The notes: a model not told the origin generated them from the letters alone. A stretch of 64,000 bases of DNA from a bacterium (GCA_013360215.1 JABWCP010000014.1:1-64000), one strand, 5' to 3'; shown: positions 48,432 to 61,604, counted from the stretch's first letter. Numbers and translations: made by a program.

Positions 48432-50948
48432 TCATACTATCTCACACTTTTTAGCTAAAACATCGGCTTCAACATATTTGTATTTTTTCTTTTCAATTCT
48501 TCCATCAGGATACTTTACTTCGACAATATCGTTTCTGCCAAATTTTTTAGAAGTAAGTAATAACATGAAAATCTCGTGTGAGTTTTTTATTTGAAGCAAC
48601 TGATTCTTTATTGTTTGGATTCCTTTTTCATCGATTACTGATGTTTTTTTTCTGCTTGAATTCTCCAGTAATTCCAACGCATGGTCGGCGTACAACATGG
48701 ACTTTTTCCCATCTCGTAATGAAAAATACAAGTTTGACATCCAATAATAAATAATTAACGATTCAAACTTTGTTTCATCGTCAATAGTCTCTTTAAGTTT
48801 AAGTTCAATTATTTTGGCTATGCTAAGCGCCTTATTTATCTCTGAACTATCTGACAAACTCTTGATTGCTACTGCGAATAAATATATATCGCTCGGATCA
48901 ATAAACGCATTCCCACTAAACAATTCCACATACTTATTAAAGTGTACGTTATCTGTCAAATTTGCCAGATCAATAAGGCATATTTCTTTAGTCGCCTTAT
49001 ACAACAACGTTTCATTTGTCTCATCTAAATTGTTTACTAAGTATTTGAGAATTTCGTTTCTCTTTAGCTTGGACAATTTACTTATAGAGTATATTATTTC
49101 AGGTTTAGTTATATCCTTCAAAAAATTCTTGTTTGAGTAGTCTAAAAGTAAAGAAAAGTTGTCTAAATTATCTTTGTCGAAAGCTAACTCCAAATACAGC
49201 AAGAGATTGTTTTTATTAAATCCAATTGGATGCGAATCACTTTCGATCTTCAGAATTGAACTACTAAGGATAGTTTTAAAAATATCGTCTTTTATAGAAA
49301 CATCAGTTTGTTGAGAAATAACATATTTTTGATATTTTAAAAAAAGAGAATCTGAAACATTACAAAACTCAAGAGCTTTGTTGATTTGCTCTAAAGCCGA
49401 TTCTACATCTTCTTTTTTTTTATATATAACTGCCTGGTAATATAGAGATAGAGATCTTATCTTATTAAGGTATTCCTTTTTTTCTCCGCTTGCTTTATAT
49501 GTCGAACTAAAGAGCTTTTCAAGTAAGTTGAGTGCCTGATTTTGATCATCAATAGAAATAGCAAGATTTAACAGTCCAATGTGATATGCACGATTGTGAT
49601 TCTCACCTTTTATGTACTCTTCTAAGATAGATATACCTTCGTTTTTTTCTCCAACAGCTATTTTACACACACCTAAATAGGGTTTGTAATCTAATACGAA
49701 TGGTTCTTCAGAGAAACCATCACTAAGAATTTGCATTGCTTTTTTATAATTTTTTACATTAAAATATGATAGGCCTAGGAAATATCTATTAGACTCTAAA
49801 TCTGTGTTCGATAGTGAGTCTTGATCTACACTTTCAAAAATCTCTATAGCTTCATGATAACTTTCATTAGAATACTTTATTAATCCATCTATATGAGTAT
49901 TATCTTTAATCGATGTCAACCATTCTTCTGAAAGACTTTCTTCAATAATTTTGTTTTTGATTCTAATTTCTCCTTCAAAATTAGAACTTATTATTCCGAA
50001 CAAATAGAGTTTACTTTTAATCTCATCAGTAAACTCCTCAGGCCTACCTTTGCGAAGAGCAATTAACGCGTTTTTTAACTGCTTATTGTTCTTAATTAGC
50101 TCTCGAATGTGATCTATCGGGGAGACATCAAAAAAAGTTAAATATTTTTTTTTAATTAAGTCTTCAATAAGATCAACAGTTACAGAACGTCCTTCTATCA
50201 CAAGACTTTCCACGTCTGAACAAATATCAAATGTCAGTCTTGGGTTACCGTTTGCCCACTTATAGATTTCGTTTGAAATTAAAGTTGATATTTGTAATCC
50301 ACTTTTTGATATAAAATCATCATGTTCAGATTTTGTAAAATCATCTAAATATATTTTTTCGCCAATATTAAACGGTGATTTATTTTTATCCTTTATCAAC
50401 TCCGTAGGCTCAACAACACCAGAAAGTACATAAGTTAATCTTTCAAATTCAGGGAAATTTGTTCTTGAAAAATAAGTACTTCTTATTTGAGCAAATATAT
50501 TGTCAGAGTACGAAATGCTTTTAAGAGCATCGATTTCATCTAAAATTATAACTAATTCACAATTAATTTTATTTAGAATTAACTTTAGACAACGATAATA
50601 TTCGCTATGTGGAGAAAGTGATTTTCTCCTAATTTGATCTATGTCGTTTTCAATATTCCCAATAACGCCGAGATTGGACTCAACAATGATATTAATAATA
50701 TTCCTATAACAATCGACTTCGTTATCATATAAATTTGATAAATCAATATAAGCAAATAACCTCTTTTCGTTTTCAAGAGTACCCTTGGCATGAAATAGTA
50801 AGTTTGTTTTACCCATTTGTCTTGCCACCAAAACGTACCCCGGCCTTTGCATCTCTTCAATTATATTTTTCAACTGAAGATCGGCGTTTCGTTCAACGTA
50901 TAAATGGGGTGGAATTTTTGTATATTTTTTTAAAACTTTTTCTTTCAT
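48432..50948 (-). CDS. AAA-like (AAA_35-type) NTPase with C-terminal TPR-like region; putative defence sensor
   Basis: 838 residues. N-terminal P-loop ATPase resembling AAA_35: 'YVERNADLQLKNIIEEMQRP', Walker A-like 'VARQMGKTNLL' (42-48 core), Walker B 'LVIILDEID' (132-140) and a winged-helix-like part to about 345. From about 350 the protein is alpha-helical with TPR-like units ('YHEAIEIFESVD', 'YFLGLSYFNVKNYKKAMQIL', 'YYQAVIYKKKEDVESALEQI') to about 780. A small basic tail ends 'YPDGRIEKKKYKYVEADVLA'. ATPase-plus-repeat layout is that of STAND-type signalling NTPases whose repeats bind a trigger. Its ATG overlaps the nuclease-gene stop (ATGA). Strong AT bias. Confidence 0.82.
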   Translation of the reverse strand: MKEKVLKKYTKIPPHLYVERNADLQLKNIIEEMQRPGYVLVARQMGKTNLLFHAKGTLENEKRLFAYIDLSNLYDNEVDCYRNIINIIVESNLGVIGNIENDIDQIRRKSLSPHSEYYRCLKLILNKINCELVIILDEIDALKSISYSDNIFAQIRSTYFSRTNFPEFERLTYVLSGVVEPTELIKDKNKSPFNIGEKIYLDDFTKSEHDDFISKSGLQISTLISNEIYKWANGNPRLTFDICSDVESLVIEGRSVTVDLIEDLIKKKYLTFFDVSPIDHIRELIKNNKQLKNALIALRKGRPEEFTDEIKSKLYLFGIISSNFEGEIRIKNKIIEESLSEEWLTSIKDNTHIDGLIKYSNESYHEAIEIFESVDQDSLSNTDLESNRYFLGLSYFNVKNYKKAMQILSDGFSEEPFVLDYKPYLGVCKIAVGEKNEGISILEEYIKGENHNRAYHIGLLNLAISIDDQNQALNLLEKLFSSTYKASGEKKEYLNKIRSLSLYYQAVIYKKKEDVESALEQINKALEFCNVSDSLFLKYQKYVISQQTDVSIKDDIFKTILSSSILKIESDSHPIGFNKNNLLLYLELAFDKDNLDNFSLLLDYSNKNFLKDITKPEIIYSISKLSKLKRNEILKYLVNNLDETNETLLYKATKEICLIDLANLTDNVHFNKYVELFSGNAFIDPSDIYLFAVAIKSLSDSSEINKALSIAKIIELKLKETIDDETKFESLIIYYWMSNLYFSLRDGKKSMLYADHALELLENSSRKKTSVIDEKGIQTIKNQLLQIKNSHEIFMLLLTSKKFGRNDIVEVKYPDGRIEKKKYKYVEADVLAKKCEIV

Positions 50949-52294
50949 TCTATTATTTCTTGATTTATTTGTTTGATTATTGAATCAATAATTTCCGCAT
51001 TTAATACTTCCGAACTAACGACTCTTCTAAGAATTGCTTTCAATCTTCTTGGTGAACAACTAGAGGCCTCGATTATTTTACATTTAAATGTGTCTAGGTT
51101 TAATCGTAATGCGTCCTGAATTAAACAAAAAAGCAACTCAATGCTTTCGTTCCATCCGTTATTACAGTTTATATATTGAAAAAAATCAGATGCTTTTGAC
51201 CAATTCTTAATTAAGATAGATGGATCTGCAATGGTAGATATTACAAACTTTAAACTATTATCTGTTTTTTTATTACCATAGTAGTTTACTAAACTTGTTA
51301 GATCATCTGATATTTTCCTAACAAGAGTTATATCAATTAACGGTAACTCATCTATTACTATTACTTTTCGTTCTCTGTTTACTTCGGCCAGAAGCTGAAC
51401 TATCTGTTTTATCACGTTCTGTTCCAATTGATTTCGTTCTTTGGAATACTTGTCTTCAATTCTACAAAGAACTTCTTCTAAAACGTCGTTTGACGTTCTG
51501 ATATTTACAGGGCTAAGGTCGCAGAAACAGTAATCAATATCTGAAATCAACAAATTTCGATTTATTAACGTTGTTTTCCCAACTCCCGATTTTCCGAAAA
51601 CCCATATATTATTTATGCTCAGAAATTTTATAAATTCGTCGTCTATTTTCCTTTTTAAATAAAAAGGTTCGCTTTTTTGGGAATAGCTATTAAATAGGAT
51701 CGTTTCCGAATCAGGTTTTGATCTTCTTTTTAAGATGTAAGTATCCGATTCCTTTGTTTGTGTAGCACCACAAATAGTTTGATGCATTTCCTGAATTCTA
51801 AGTGAATCTTCTATCCTGAAAACTGTATTATAAAGATCCTTCTCTTTAAGTAGATTGATTAGTTCATTTCCATTTATCAGTTTAATGAATTCATCTGTTT
51901 TACTATGCTCAACAATTTTCTCACTCTTCCACTTCTCCCACCAACGCGCTTGATCAATATCTAAAACCGATGGAATACATAAAATCCAACTTTTAAGTTC
52001 GAAATTATCGGATTCTCTCGCGGTATCGAATGACTTTCTGATTTGTTGTTTTTGACTATCGGAAAAACTTTCCAAGAAAAACTTACATTGAACTACTGTT
52101 ATTGGTTCTATTCCTATTTTCCCAATAAAAACATCAATCCCTCCATCTCCATGTTTTACTTCAACCTGACTTACGACCTGATTGGAATACATTTTTCTAA
52201 ATAAGTTCTCACAAGCAATTTCAAATGCTTTCCTTGCGCCCTCAATATTCCCATGTAGCGCTTTAAAGTCACTCCAATCTCTATTCATTTTCAT
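50945..52294 (-). CDS. Mrr-like PD-(D/E)xK nuclease fused to P-loop NTPase; putative defence effector
   Basis: 449 residues. N-terminal nuclease domain (about 15-150) with E29, D54 in 'HGDGGIDVFIG' and Q69xK71 in 'ITVVQCKFF', the E...D...QxK pattern of Mrr-type restriction nucleases. Then a P-loop NTPase with Walker A 'FGKSGVGKTT' (234-242), Walker B 'VIVIDEL' (311-317) and a helical end. Nuclease-NTPase fusions occur in Avs and related anti-phage STAND proteins, but those carry large C-terminal sensor repeats, which this protein lacks. The next gene supplies such repeats. First gene of the operon; AT-rich. Confidence 0.85.
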   Translation of the reverse strand: MKMNRDWSDFKALHGNIEGARKAFEIACENLFRKMYSNQVVSQVEVKHGDGGIDVFIGKIGIEPITVVQCKFFLESFSDSQKQQIRKSFDTARESDNFELKSWILCIPSVLDIDQARWWEKWKSEKIVEHSKTDEFIKLINGNELINLLKEKDLYNTVFRIEDSLRIQEMHQTICGATQTKESDTYILKRRSKPDSETILFNSYSQKSEPFYLKRKIDDEFIKFLSINNIWVFGKSGVGKTTLINRNLLISDIDYCFCDLSPVNIRTSNDVLEEVLCRIEDKYSKERNQLEQNVIKQIVQLLAEVNRERKVIVIDELPLIDITLVRKISDDLTSLVNYYGNKKTDNSLKFVISTIADPSILIKNWSKASDFFQYINCNNGWNESIELLFCLIQDALRLNLDTFKCKIIEASSCSPRRLKAILRRVVSSEVLNAEIIDSIIKQINQEIIE

Positions 52295-52485: not shown

Positions 52486-52493
52486 AGAATTCG

Positions 52494-52854
52494 TGGAGAC
52501 GACGGGAATTGAACCCGTGTCCGAATATAAGTTCCTAAGGGCATCTACATGCGTAGGACTGTTTTGGTTTTTAACCGGCTCATAAAAAACGTCCAAAAAG
52601 CAAACCGGCGAGCTCGATAGTATTTCGCGTCAGACCTCCGAGCATTGGCCCTTCGCTAGTCGATCAAAAATGACATCTCAGCTAACTCCGATCAACGGGA
52701 GATGGCCGAAACGGACTGCAGGAAATTAATCCTTAGGCAGCCAACGCGTATGCGTTATTGTTGAGTATTGGTTTCCGCTTATTTTACGCGCACACAGAAA
52801 AAGCGCGGCATGCGACCCAAAGCACCCTATACCCGTCGAATCCAGTTCGTCCCC
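52494..52854 (-). ncRNA. ssrA: Transfer-messenger RNA (tmRNA)
   Basis: On the minus strand the 5' end reads GGGGACGAACTGGATTCGAC and the 3' end GGTTCAATTCCCGTCGTCTCC plus a discriminator A; GGGGACG pairs with CGTCTCC to make the acceptor stem. CCA is not encoded. It rescues stalled ribosomes and tags their products. The tag frame ending N-N-N-A-Y-A-L-A-A stops at 52733-52735, but usual resume codons upstream (GCG at 52776-52778, GGA at 52774-52776) are in other frames; the GCG frame reads A-E-T-N-T-Q-Q and stops at 52755. A one-base indel in this sequence is likely. Confidence 0.95.
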
Positions 52855-55979: not shown

Positions 55980-58900
55980 TTATTCATTTTTATCATTGAT
56001 CACGTCGTATATTAATTGACGAAATGCATCCACCTGAAACGGTTTGATGATATAACCTTTAAACCCATACGATTTGTGATCAGCCATGATCGGATCGTTG
56101 GAATAGCCGCTTGAGACGACGGCGCGAACGTTCGGATCAATTTCTAAAAGCTTTTTTATTGTTTCTTTTCCGCCCATACCTCCGGGAATCGTGAGATCCA
56201 TGATCACGACATCATACGGCACTCCGGCATCTCGTGCCGTCGTAAACGCGCGTATGGCATCTGTGCCATCAGTGACGGAATCCGTCTGGTAACCAAACTT
56301 ACGCAGAATACGTGTGGTTATTTCCCGGATGTCTTCTTCGTCATCCATGACAAGTATTTTTCCGCTGCCCATTCCAAGTTCCTTTTGCGGGGCCGATTGT
56401 TGTTGCACTTGTTTTTCCGAAGCCGGCAGATACACCGTAAAAACAGAACCGACGCCAAGTTGTGATTCGACGGATATTGCGCCCTGATGGTTCTTTACGA
56501 TGGAATAACAAGTAGCCAAACCCAAGCCGCTACCGCGTTGTTTGGTTGTAAAATACGGATCGAAAATTTTAGACAAATATTCCGACGCAATGCCGACACC
56601 TTGATCGGTAATTCCCATGCGAATATATTTTCCTGCCGCAAGATGCATGATCGCATTTTCATCTAAGTATACGTTTTCTGCTTTTATATGTATAACTCCG
56701 CCGTCCGGCATCGCATGAACAGCGTTAATCACCAGATTCTGAATCACTTGACTGATCTGTCCCTCATCGATTTCGGCAGGCCATAAATCATCCGGCATAT
56801 CATACTCACACAACACATTGGATCCGCGCATCATAAAGTCCGCCGCTTCACGAATCAATTCACTGATGGTCAGCGTTTTCCTGACCGGCGATCCGCCTTT
56901 GGCAAACGTGAGTAATTGTTGCGTCAGTTCTTTGGCGCGAAATCCGGCTTTTTCAGAGCGGGATAATATATCATCAATTTTATCATAGTGATGCTGCTGA
57001 TGTTCCATACGCGCCAGTGAAATATTACCCAATATCGCTGTCAAAATATTATTAAAGTCGTGCGCAATACCACCGGCAAGTAATCCGACCGATTCCAGTT
57101 TGATAGATTTCAGGCGTTCTTCTTCTATTTTTTGTTTCTCTGTGATATCACGAAACACAAGTACCACACCGATGATCGTACTTTCTTTGTCACGGATGGG
57201 CGCACCGCTGTCGGCTATCAATCGTTCTGTGCCATCACGAGCGATCAACGCCGTATTTTGTTCCAGCTCAAAAATGCCGCCGCTTTGAATGATCCGACGC
57301 ACCGGCTCCGCAATACGCACTTTGGTTTTGTAATTGATGATATGAAAAATATCCTCGATCGGTCTGTCTTGCGCTTCTTCTTGCGTCCATCCGGTCAATA
57401 CTTCGGCAACACGATTGATCAAAACGATCCGTCCTTGCACATCCGTCGTGATCACGCCGTCACCGATCGAACGCAGTGTCACAGATAACCGCTCTTTTTC
57501 GGCTTCGAGAGCGCGTTCGGTTTTTTTGCGATCCGTTATATCATAATATACACCCTGAATAGCCGGTGTGTCATTCCATAAAATTTCAGCTACCCGCACT
57601 TCTAAATCACGAATGCGACCGTCTTTGGTGATTACCTTTAGTTCATACAAATCCGATACGGGTAATCCTTGACGTCGCCGTTCCATTCGCTCTTCGATCA
57701 TAGGCTTATTCTCGGGTGCGATAATCTTGTATATCGAGAAATCCGGTTGTGATACGTCATGCGCTGTATAACCGAACAGTTTTTCCCACGCCGGATTGAC
57801 AATTACGATTTTTTCGTTTTGCAAAACATACACCGGATTCAACGCTTGCTCGACCAATGTTTTATACTGAAGATCGCGTTGGCGAAGTATACTTTCTGCC
57901 GTCCGTAATTCGGTGATATCAGAAATAAATCCCTCGATGTATAAAAGTTTACCATCCGCATACACACCGGAACCGACTTCCGATAACCACCGCCAACTTC
58001 CGTCGCGATGTTGGATACGATAAGTTAAACTAAACGAATGTTGATCCCGCACGGCGGTATGAACAATATGATTGATCATAGCCACATCATCAGGATGATA
58101 CATCGTGCTCAGGCTTATTCGCCTGTCATAAAAATCTTCCTTCGGATACCCCGTGATGTCCAAAATCGCTTCGCTGGTATAAATGAACGTAAAATCAGCA
58201 TCGTTTTCACACATGTACACGACCCCCGGAAGGTTTTCGGCAAGTAATCGGAATTTTTCTTCACTTTGCCTCAACACTTCTTCCGATTTTTTACGTTCCG
58301 TAATGTCACGCGAATTAACCACGATGCCGCCGACAACCGCATCATGCAATAGGTTATGGGCCGTCACTTCCAATGTGCGCCATGAATGATCTTTGTGTAA
58401 AAATCGAAAATGGACATTGACTATTTTTTGCCCTTGATGAATTCCGGTTTGGAAGGCTTCGCGAATTAAGGGACGGTCTTCCGGATGGGCAAAATCTAAC
58501 ACGTTCTTACCGATAAGGTCGTTAGGCGTAAACCCGGTTATTTTTTCTACGGAAGGACTTTCGTACAAGATCGTACCATCAGCTGAAATAATACTGATAA
58601 GATCCAACGCATTCTCAATCAACGCGCGATAGTATTTTTCACGACGTTCCACGGCTTCCCGGCTTCGCACACGTTCAGTCACATCGCGCGAAAAAATGGA
58701 AGCGCCGCGAATAATCCCGTCGTCCGTGCGGATCGGAAAAAAAGAAATTTCATAATCACGCGACTCGCCGCCCAGATCATAGTGATCCGATTCCATAAAT
58801 ACCTCGCCGCGAACGATGACGCGTTCATACCTTGCCTTCCATAAGGCCTTGAGATCGTCGGGTATACTGTCAATCACATTCATTCCGACTTCCAATCGAA

Positions 58901-61604
58901 CCCCAAATGCCGCAAAATACGCATCGCGGAATGTCGAATTGATGGTGACAATCCTGTAGTCGGCGTCGATGGACCAAATGGAATCATGCGAATTTTCAAG
59001 AATTGCCGCTAAATTGGCTTCATTATTCCTTAAATCCTCTTCAACCAAACGTCGTTCGGTTACATCTTTGCGTACGGCCCATACGCGTTTCCAGAAACCT
59101 TGCTCCACGACACCGGTATAACTATTGATGAAAAATCGTTTGGAACCATCTTCGGATATTTTTTCCGACTCGATATCGCTCGCTGAATAACCGTTACGAA
59201 TTAAGTGTGCAACCCACTCGCGCTGTGCCGTTTGTTCCGTAGCTTCATCGCGCCAAACTTTGTTCCCCGTAAGCTGATCCGGTGTACGATAGCCTTCACT
59301 GAGCGCATACGTACTATTGCATTCACTGATAAAGGCCGTTTCAAAAAAAGATGCGATCTGATCTTCGACGGGTAGGTTCACGGCAATCGGTTTTTCAAAT
59401 TCAAATAAACAAATGCCATCGGAGCTGTTGGCCACAAATGCCCGATACCGCTCTTCACTTTGTTTGAGCGCTATTTCTGATTTTTTTAATTCTGTTATAT
59501 CTTTTTGCGTCCCCCAAATACGCGTAAGTTTTCCGTCTTCGACAATACCTATGGCACTGTTCAAAAATATCTTCTGCGCGCCATACTTATCCACTTCGTG
59601 CGATTCCTGATTGGCAAAATGATAACCCGATTTTACGAAGTCCACCATGTAGGCCACGTTATGCGGGTCATTTGGCAGAAGTAAGGTTTTGAGGGGTAAG
59701 CCAATTAACTCCTCTACCGAATTAAAGCCATACATCAGCGCTTGTACGGTATTGGCCTCGGCGATATAGCCTCCGGCAAATATACTAGCCACTTGCTCTT
59801 CCGGCATCCAATCAATCGGAACTGGTTCATCTAACTCAAGGCGATAAATACCCTCCGTACTTTGCTCAATGAAAGCGCGGTATTTTTGATCACTTTGGGT
59901 CAACGCTTCTTCAGAACGACGTACGTCGGAAATATCACGGCAAATAAACTGCAGGCACGGTTGATCGTCGTATTCTATTTTGGAAATCACTGATGAATAC
60001 CAGTGCATCTTTCCCCACCGATCAATAAAACGATTTTCTATGATGCCGGAATGGGTCCTCGCGCTTTGTGCAAATTCGTCAATAAGCGCATTGACTCTTC
60101 CAAAATCTTCCGGGTGAACAAAAGGGTTTTCATCGGGCGGAAAACGAAAGTCATTGAGTGTATAACCGGTTTGACGTTCCATCGCCGGATTGACATACAG
60201 CATATTGCGTTTGTAATCTGTGATAAAAAGTACATCATGGAACGACTCGACTAGTTTTCTGTAACGCTCTTCCCGCTCTTTGAGCAACTGTTCAGCTTCC
60301 ACACGTTCGGTAACATCGCGTGTCGTAATGAGAATTCCCTCAACGGATGCATCCAAAAGCAAATTGACACCGACGCTTTCACAGTGACGCCACGTTCCGT
60401 TTTTATGTAAAAAACGGTACATAGCCGTAGCCGATTCGCCCGGCACACGAAGCAAGGATTCAAAAGTTTTTTGCAATACTTCAAGGTCTTCCGGATGAAT
60501 CTGATCGAATGCATTGCGCCCAAGCAACTCGTCCTGCGTATAACCGAGCATCGGAAATATGGAGGGGCTCTCGTACCGGATCGTACCGTCCGCTGCGACA
60601 ATCGTGATCAGATCGCGTAGTTGGCGCACCAGCATCGTAAATCGTTCTTCACTGCGATGTAATGCGTCTAAGGCAAATTTTTGCCCGGTGATGTCGCTGA
60701 CAACAAACTGAATGGCCGGTTTTTGAAGGTATTCGATTTTACTAAGTACGGACGAATGCCAGCGTAATCTTCCCCAACGATCCACAAAACGGTTTTCCAA
60801 AGTTTTAGAAAACATGGCTTCGCTTTGTATAAAATCCGCTATGAAACGATTGACGTTAGGCAAATCCTCCGGATAGATCAACGGATGTTGATGTACGTTA
60901 AAATCATAATCTGTGGCCGTGTATCCCGTGTGTTTTTCGACAGCAGGGTTGATGTACAACACATTGCGATAGTAGTCCTCGATAAATACCATGTCATCCG
61001 ACGCTTCGAGTAAAGCGTGATACCGTATTTCGGCTTGGCGTCTTTCTTCCGCATGTTTTGAGCCGGTGATACAATCGGCTACAGCGTTGGCAAACTCTTC
61101 TTCGCGTCGGGCCCATCGGCGTGATCCTCCGACATGCTCATGGCACAAAACACCGATCACGCGGCCGTCCTGCCAGATCGGTACATCCATCATCGCGCCG
61201 ATCCCGTTGGGCAAAAGATAATCTTCCGTAAAAGCACTGGTGCGGGGATCTTTGTGAGCATTCTTCGCCAGTAATGACCGGCCGGAATTCAATGCCTTAA
61301 AGTAAGGTTTATATTTAGAAGCTAAAAGTACGTCCCCTTTGAAATATTTTTTTTTCTCCCGACTGTAAAGTGCGACACATTGGATAGCCGATCGGTCCGG
61401 CGTGAATAACCAGACACTGACGCGATCAATAGATTGCAAGTCGGCGGATATACGTACGGCGGCACGCACCAAAGCGTCAAAACCTTTACGCAGACGATAC
61501 AGATGCAGCAGGGCATCATGCTGTCGCGTGCTATCTAATTTTCGAAGAGTCTTTGGGGGACTCTTCTTTTTAGATGAAACTCGCTTTGGGGTTTTACGCG
61601 CCAT
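55980..61604 (-). CDS. Hybrid histidine kinase: GAF, about ten PAS domains, kinase, receiver
   Basis: 1874 residues, no membrane helix, so cytoplasmic. GAF domain about 25-190, followed by roughly ten PAS/PAC units from about 195 to 1475, each ending in a 'DITERKKSEE'-type connector. HisKA with 'GIAHDFNNILTAILGNISLA', HATPase with 'NLVINAVHAMPDGG' and 'GSGLGLATCYSI', and a C-terminal receiver (about 1745-1870; 'VVIMDLTIPGGMGG'). Several PAS units are near copies of others, showing recent internal duplication. It probably senses several soluble or redox cues and passes phosphate through its own receiver. It follows the DUF481-like gene by 3 bases. Confidence 0.92.
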   Translation of the reverse strand: MARKTPKRVSSKKKSPPKTLRKLDSTRQHDALLHLYRLRKGFDALVRAAVRISADLQSIDRVSVWLFTPDRSAIQCVALYSREKKKYFKGDVLLASKYKPYFKALNSGRSLLAKNAHKDPRTSAFTEDYLLPNGIGAMMDVPIWQDGRVIGVLCHEHVGGSRRWARREEEFANAVADCITGSKHAEERRQAEIRYHALLEASDDMVFIEDYYRNVLYINPAVEKHTGYTATDYDFNVHQHPLIYPEDLPNVNRFIADFIQSEAMFSKTLENRFVDRWGRLRWHSSVLSKIEYLQKPAIQFVVSDITGQKFALDALHRSEERFTMLVRQLRDLITIVAADGTIRYESPSIFPMLGYTQDELLGRNAFDQIHPEDLEVLQKTFESLLRVPGESATAMYRFLHKNGTWRHCESVGVNLLLDASVEGILITTRDVTERVEAEQLLKEREERYRKLVESFHDVLFITDYKRNMLYVNPAMERQTGYTLNDFRFPPDENPFVHPEDFGRVNALIDEFAQSARTHSGIIENRFIDRWGKMHWYSSVISKIEYDDQPCLQFICRDISDVRRSEEALTQSDQKYRAFIEQSTEGIYRLELDEPVPIDWMPEEQVASIFAGGYIAEANTVQALMYGFNSVEELIGLPLKTLLLPNDPHNVAYMVDFVKSGYHFANQESHEVDKYGAQKIFLNSAIGIVEDGKLTRIWGTQKDITELKKSEIALKQSEERYRAFVANSSDGICLFEFEKPIAVNLPVEDQIASFFETAFISECNSTYALSEGYRTPDQLTGNKVWRDEATEQTAQREWVAHLIRNGYSASDIESEKISEDGSKRFFINSYTGVVEQGFWKRVWAVRKDVTERRLVEEDLRNNEANLAAILENSHDSIWSIDADYRIVTINSTFRDAYFAAFGVRLEVGMNVIDSIPDDLKALWKARYERVIVRGEVFMESDHYDLGGESRDYEISFFPIRTDDGIIRGASIFSRDVTERVRSREAVERREKYYRALIENALDLISIISADGTILYESPSVEKITGFTPNDLIGKNVLDFAHPEDRPLIREAFQTGIHQGQKIVNVHFRFLHKDHSWRTLEVTAHNLLHDAVVGGIVVNSRDITERKKSEEVLRQSEEKFRLLAENLPGVVYMCENDADFTFIYTSEAILDITGYPKEDFYDRRISLSTMYHPDDVAMINHIVHTAVRDQHSFSLTYRIQHRDGSWRWLSEVGSGVYADGKLLYIEGFISDITELRTAESILRQRDLQYKTLVEQALNPVYVLQNEKIVIVNPAWEKLFGYTAHDVSQPDFSIYKIIAPENKPMIEERMERRRQGLPVSDLYELKVITKDGRIRDLEVRVAEILWNDTPAIQGVYYDITDRKKTERALEAEKERLSVTLRSIGDGVITTDVQGRIVLINRVAEVLTGWTQEEAQDRPIEDIFHIINYKTKVRIAEPVRRIIQSGGIFELEQNTALIARDGTERLIADSGAPIRDKESTIIGVVLVFRDITEKQKIEEERLKSIKLESVGLLAGGIAHDFNNILTAILGNISLARMEHQQHHYDKIDDILSRSEKAGFRAKELTQQLLTFAKGGSPVRKTLTISELIREAADFMMRGSNVLCEYDMPDDLWPAEIDEGQISQVIQNLVINAVHAMPDGGVIHIKAENVYLDENAIMHLAAGKYIRMGITDQGVGIASEYLSKIFDPYFTTKQRGSGLGLATCYSIVKNHQGAISVESQLGVGSVFTVYLPASEKQVQQQSAPQKELGMGSGKILVMDDEEDIREITTRILRKFGYQTDSVTDGTDAIRAFTTARDAGVPYDVVIMDLTIPGGMGGKETIKKLLEIDPNVRAVVSSGYSNDPIMADHKSYGFKGYIIKPFQVDAFRQLIYDVINDKNE

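Follow-up and report, generated by a model that had tools for sequence, protein, structure and literature searches.

In most known bacterial STAND defences, the effector, the switch and the sensor reside on one chain. This is the case for the Avs proteins, in which an effector (or a protease), an NTPase and a sensor arm are fused in a single polypeptide. A two-gene layout was described for nSTAND2, a predicted counter-invader system in which a mobile operon encodes one STAND NTPase per gene, variable effectors are attached to a constant core, and the two products are predicted to form a hetero-multimer (Kaur et al. 2021, eLife; PMC8195603). Here we analysed 64,000 nt of bacterial DNA (GCA_013360215.1, JABWCP010000014.1:1-64000; this whole stretch is referred to as the window), which contains two overlapping genes: gene 1, encoding an N-terminal effector joined to an NTPase, and gene 2, encoding an AAA_35 NTPase followed by a TPR-type arm. 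We consider it probable (roughly 0.7) that this pair is a mobile anti-phage, or anti-mobile-element, defence system in which two STAND-type NTPases are distributed over a sensor chain and an executor chain.

A preliminary description of the locus, made from the DNA by itself, had held that gene 1 joins an Mrr-like nuclease to a complete P-loop NTPase, that gene 2 combines an AAA_35-like NTPase with TPR-like helices, and that the two open reading frames (ORFs) share the four bases ATGA; all three points were borne out, with both ORFs on the minus strand at the coordinates given in Table 1. In gene 1, Pfam detects Mrr_cat with a score exceeding the cut-off (aa 22-87) and AAA_22 (aa 230-343), and the Lamassu effector LmuA matches aa 10-153 in PADLOC (3e-22), with only the N-terminal portion of that model covered. 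D54, Q69 and K71 belong to the nuclease motif GDGGID...QCK (aa 49-71), whose spacing is identical in two distant homologues (L006 and L031). Downstream of the effector lies an LFxxY..YLxR linker, followed by Walker A (aa 234-241, GKSGVGKT from aa 234), Walker B (aa 311-317) and SPR (aa 414-416). The Walker B residue E316 is invariant in all aligned homologues, and the P-loop GxxGxGK[ST] is kept in 19/19 effector-NTPases checked. This NTPase part was modelled by AlphaFold, using an alignment of the loci themselves, at a predicted local distance difference test (pLDDT) score of about 90, and the best PDB matches of the model were the CED-4 apoptosome, the archaeal ATPase SSO1545 and Cdc6/ORC.

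Gene 2 carries an AAA_35 domain (4e-19, 69 bits against a gathering threshold of 27) and TPR/ANAPC3 repeats according to Pfam, and no PADLOC profile matches it. Its AAA_35 module displays the motifs ARQMGKT (aa 42-48), LDEID (aa 136-140), SPFNIG (aa 191-196) and GNPR (aa 234-237), with K47 and D137-E138 invariant in 14 homologues; conservation is highest in the AAA_35 core, and the TPR solenoid is the variable part. The model of the entire chain (pLDDT 85.8 overall) consists of the AAA module, an all-helical solenoid (about aa 350-795) and a small C-terminal hairpin-helix. The latter, a beta hairpin plus helix at aa 802-831 (KFGRNDIVEVKY..KYKYVEADV), corresponds to a consensus, GRNxxVxVxY.DG....KYKK.E.DI, found near the end of nearly all sensors in the alignment, and perhaps contacts the executor or the trigger. 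The best PDB match of the sensor model was 6mfv, a STAND protein with a TPR sensor (1.4e-8, 12% identity), and Avs3 (with terminase) and Avs5 were also among the matches; searching PDB with the protein sequences returned nothing useful. Together, the fold matches to CED-4, Cdc6/ORC and 6mfv and the GNPR and SPR motifs place the pair in the STAND superfamily.

The arrangement recurs well beyond this genome. A sensor profile search revealed further pairs in two IMG/VR contigs and ten bacterial genomes, and family-level genome searches added more, giving 21 distinct pairs in all (the window, L003-L015, L020-L022, L030, L031, L054 and L055). The 20 additional pairs come from Bacteroidota, Proteobacteria, a planctomycete, a plasmid and two prophages. 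In every pair the effector gene immediately precedes the sensor gene, at a spacing of -23 (overlap) to +6 bp (gap), and on the Sphingobium plasmid the adjacent genes share the same 4-base overlap as in the window. Since arrangement and sequence are both conserved in 20 other loci, the pair is not a chance arrangement. The preliminary description would have been refuted had homologues of the two genes never been found together, but of 22 sensor homologues 21 are directly preceded by an effector-NTPase gene. The remaining one (L028) is an orphan between insertion sequences, with transposase genes on both sides, and this sensor (L028/L032) is probably a broken copy. The sensor of L012 is truncated; two distant AAA_35-like proteins lacking a partner (L016 and L017) were excluded from these counts. 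In 205 Hymenobacteraceae genomes, the sensor profile and, independently, a profile of the gene 1 NTPase domain with the effector removed led to the same six genomes and the same seven adjacent places, all seven thus being reached from either side.

The pair is patchily distributed in the five groups of genomes searched (6/205, 2/400, 2/301, 1/395 and 3/401), each count including the genome(s) that led to the group. At the DNA level, the Aeromonas pair had no homologue in E. coli genomes. No homologue of either protein was detected in phage records, and single-protein scans of viral contigs gave no match.

What varies among these loci is the effector. The constant part downstream of it consists of a linker (LFxxY....YYLxR), W..GxSGxGKT, the Walker B glutamate and SPRxxK, and it is preceded by an Mrr/LmuA nuclease (the window, L006 and L031), a trypsin-like protease (L004 and L030), a DUF676/PGAP1-like alpha/beta hydrolase (L003, L005, L010, L012, L013, L014, L054 and L055) or a PNP_UDP_1 nucleosidase-type domain (L008, L009, L011, L015 and L020-L022). 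These identities derive from Pfam and PADLOC, and the catalytic motifs are retained. The protease-bearing L030 and the nuclease-bearing L031 are 60% identical in their NTPases and 62% in their sensors, with unrelated effectors; conversely, the nucleases of the window and L031 are 43% identical while their cores share only 27%. In the tree of the sensors, loci with a nuclease and loci with a protease intermingle, with strong support. Over all pairs, NTPase and sensor identities are correlated (r = 0.94, Mantel p = 0.0002), close pairs carrying much of r, as reflected in a rank correlation of 0.57. Effectors have therefore been exchanged repeatedly on constant, co-diverging NTPase/AAA_35-TPR cores. 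Judged by these comparisons, the nuclease noted in the preliminary description is one among four or more interchangeable effectors, and this exchange is stronger evidence than the observations first made at the locus.

Each protease version is accompanied by a gene for an MBL-fold protein of Avs1a/LmuA type, upstream in L004 and divergent in L030. The combination of MBL nuclease and protease also occurs in Avs, Lamassu, Hachiman and DRT, and in Hachiman and Avs the cassette was experimentally shown to work, with a protease fused to the defence enzyme that cuts the nuclease open (PMC12799240). The present pair is one more chassis into which this cassette has moved. Other variants were observed as well. 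A second, larger MBL-fold gene (L030:12142-13662) occurs a few kb from the protease-type pair, and an Mrr-like nuclease gene (L014:5190-6269; PDC-S02/ZorD-like) with a hydrophobic N-terminal part is positioned just upstream of the Delftia hydrolase pair. At L007:6680-7093 (Aureivirga), the executor has only a short N-terminus (TNGNNNNILNNIQNSTI), and upstream of it stands a separate ORF of 137 aa that belongs to no known family; this ORF possibly encodes an effector that is bound through an adaptor.

Several relatives lie among mobile or defence genes. Both prophage copies adjoin a phage repressor. In L004 the order is repressor, MBL gene, protease-NTPase, sensor, tyrosine integrase and a glutaredoxin gene, the last of which probably marks the host side, and L005 adjoins prophage repressor, CII and primase genes. 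One Hymenobacter genome has two copies, and the second, L031, has the Septu genes PtuA (2e-129) and PtuB (6e-36) and a DUF4297/LmuA gene within about 7 kb, with serine recombinases on its other side. The Septu-like genes and the DUF4297/LmuA-type gene (L031:507-4294) form a compact defence island.

These observations suggest a model akin to Avs, CED-4 and paired NLRs. The sensor has an NTPase and a TPR arm and no effector, and the executor has an effector and an NTPase and no arm. The variable TPR arm of protein 2 would bind an invader-derived trigger, presumably of phage origin, upon which nucleotide exchange would change the state of the sensor NTPase and lead it to assemble. The executor NTPase of protein 1 would then join the sensor assembly or be templated by it, and the copies of the N-terminal effector, brought together in this putative hetero-oligomer, would be activated by proximity. 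From the effector set across relatives, the probable outcome would be DNA destruction, or abortive infection or other lethal damage to the cell: in this genome the weapon would be a DNA nuclease, and in relatives an MBL nuclease with a trypsin-like protease, a lipase-like alpha/beta hydrolase or a PNP-type nucleosidase. There are about even odds that the pair is a bacterial counterpart of the plant paired sensor and helper/executor NLRs, with complementary, co-assembling STAND NTPases that must both be nucleotide-competent. If so, the system would be a plug-and-play immune chassis accepting at least four unrelated effector chemistries, its natural chimeras would allow asking how an NLR-like sensor signals to a separate executor, and it would bear on the question of whether bacteria, too, evolved paired immune receptors.

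Compared with described systems, the pair resembles nSTAND2 in having two adjacent genes that each encode a STAND-type NTPase. The distinct architecture suggested in the preliminary description held as regards the absence of features defining Avs (a single chain) or Lamassu (SMC); the idea of dividing effector and sensor between two NTPases has a precedent in nSTAND2. The pair is set apart from nSTAND2 by description: the effector NTPase of nSTAND2 has eroded or inactive nucleotide-binding motifs, whereas here the P-loop and the Walker B glutamate are preserved as stated above; the usual nSTAND2 effectors are GT4 or HEPN, in contrast to the nuclease, hydrolase, PNP and protease domains found here; and the partner is an AAA_35-TPR protein. 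No nSTAND2 model matched in the Pfam scan of the pair. With Avs, the system shares the effector pool (MBL and trypsin protease as in Avs1, and an Mrr-type nuclease), a STAND NTPase and a TPR-like sensor arm, but these parts are divided between two genes in 21/21 loci. Avs PADLOC matches, where present, fall on the N-terminal effector, that of Avs1b in L030 running slightly into the NTPase part, and none was obtained on the sensors scanned. The nuclease is nearest to LmuA models, which the protease and MBL versions also match, but the similarity stops short of the C-terminal half of LmuA, in whose place gene 1 has a P-loop NTPase, and the SMC protein LmuB has no match in either gene or in the eight neighbouring genes. 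The 6mfv protein likewise has an NTPase followed by a TPR arm, but as a single protein, for which, to our knowledge, no paired effector-NTPase is known.

Cyanobacterial AAA_35 proteins (Pfam PF14516) belong to the same NTPase family and are annotated with other partners (WD40, CHASE2 and TPR). A Nostoc plasmid protein (L056:4899-6773) fuses an alpha/beta hydrolase directly to AAA_35 and is possibly a one-chain relative of the hydrolase version, although it matches Pfam AAA_35 far better (433 bits, as compared with 51-69 in the paired sensors). Neither core is covered by the PADLOC 2023 profiles, and survey tools based on the searched profiles would therefore miss the system; the profiles built here would detect it. 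Literature searches for an AAA_35-based defence system found none, with bioRxiv and most subscription papers outside their scope, and this modular STAND-type immunity with its unusual two-switch layout may already be described in literature beyond that scope.

Several observations weigh against the proposed reading. Most of the nuclease in the gene 1 model has a pLDDT below about 55, in a run containing only one other aligned sequence with the same effector, so that the nuclease fold rests on sequence profiles; of the nuclease claim in the preliminary description, the family assignment by Pfam and PADLOC stood, but the model did not add to it. Over its whole chain, the sensor reaches only low TM-scores against STAND structures (0.23-0.29 for 6mfv), and the structural matches consequently tell class, not detail. 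Many cyanobacterial AAA_35 proteins were matched with no sign of an effector-NTPase partner, which means that AAA_35 alone does not imply defence. Finally, there were no other defence genes among the eight genes neighbouring the pair in the window. A regulatory or housekeeping STAND pair could be imagined, given that some STAND-TPR proteins, such as MalT, regulate transcription, but this appears highly improbable for genes that lack a DNA-binding output domain, swap destructive effectors, travel as prophage cargo and are present in only 0.25-3% of a family's genomes.

The overlapping genes, toxic-type effectors and mobile settings would also suit a toxin-antitoxin-like pair, in which the AAA_35-TPR protein inhibits the effector-NTPase until its degradation or a phage product frees the effector, with no sensing assembly. 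Antitoxins, however, are usually small and fast-evolving, whereas the downstream protein here is a large NTPase that is best conserved in its AAA_35 core and whose nucleotide-binding motifs, unneeded in an inhibitor, are all invariant; with the P-loop of the upstream protein likewise kept in every case checked, we regard this explanation as unlikely. That the pair is not a system of its own but a split AVAST member or derived from Lamassu is suggested by the common effector pool, matched by LmuA, Avs1a and Avs1b models, and by the STAND-like sensor fold, yet seems distinctly unlikely, as the PADLOC Avs and LmuB models miss the window sensor and match gene 1 in the effector only, no SMC gene is nearby and the core is AAA_35. 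The Mrr_cat match and the Cdc6/ORC-like DNA-processing fold might instead indicate type IV restriction, with the NTPases moving on or recognising (modified) DNA that the Mrr-type domain cuts; it is hard to reconcile with a core that also carries hydrolase, protease and nucleosidase domains, which do not cut DNA, and with a sensor built on a TPR solenoid, a type that binds proteins, and we consider it very unlikely. A paired sensor and executor acting in defence remains our preferred reading.

Table 1. Coordinates of the gene pair, its domains and the adjoining tmRNA gene in the window.
Feature	Position	Strand	Evidence
Gene 1, effector-NTPase, 449 aa (Mrr/LmuA-like nuclease + STAND/Cdc6-clade NTPase)	50945..52294	-	
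Gene 2, AAA_35 NTPase + TPR sensor, 838 aa, overlapping gene 1 by ATGA	48432..50948	-	
Effector domain, aa 10-155 of gene 1, predicted PD-(D/E)xK nuclease, Mrr_cat/LmuA type	51830..52267	-	Pfam, PADLOC, motif conservation
NTPase domain, aa 198-449 of gene 1	50945..51703	-	Pfam, motifs, model ~90 pLDDT, PDB matches
AAA_35 NTPase module, aa 1-345 of gene 2	49914..50948	-	Pfam AAA_35, invariant columns
Helical TPR-type solenoid, aa 350-795 of gene 2	48564..49901	-	Pfam TPR/ANAPC3, all-helical model
Conserved C-terminal motif, aa 802-831 of gene 2	48456..48545	-	Alignment, model
tmRNA gene (ssrA)	52491..52854	-	Rfam RF00023, 2e-58

The pair occupies an island of low G+C content (0.27-0.34, about 0.30, across 48.3-52.4 kb, as compared with about 0.44 around it), bounded by the tmRNA gene, directly downstream of whose 3' end it lies, and by a glycerophosphodiester-phosphodiesterase-like gene. 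Neither gene occurs in the phylum relatives of this genome (9 genomes including itself), and given this absence and the low G+C content the pair looks recently acquired. A search for an integrase and for a duplicated tmRNA end (attachment-site duplication at the tmRNA gene) found neither. Comparison with an empty site gave no result, as the flanking gene lacks a close orthologue in most relatives.

A match of the gene 1 NTPase to the MADS component mad8 was weak and was dropped: an ordinary ABC-F-type ATPase in the window scores far higher against mad3 and mad8, and the match is therefore taken as a generic P-loop signal. Elsewhere in the window (55980-61604), a 1874-aa hybrid-histidine-kinase-like protein with a GAF domain and many PAS domains is encoded next to a tRNA-Lys gene.

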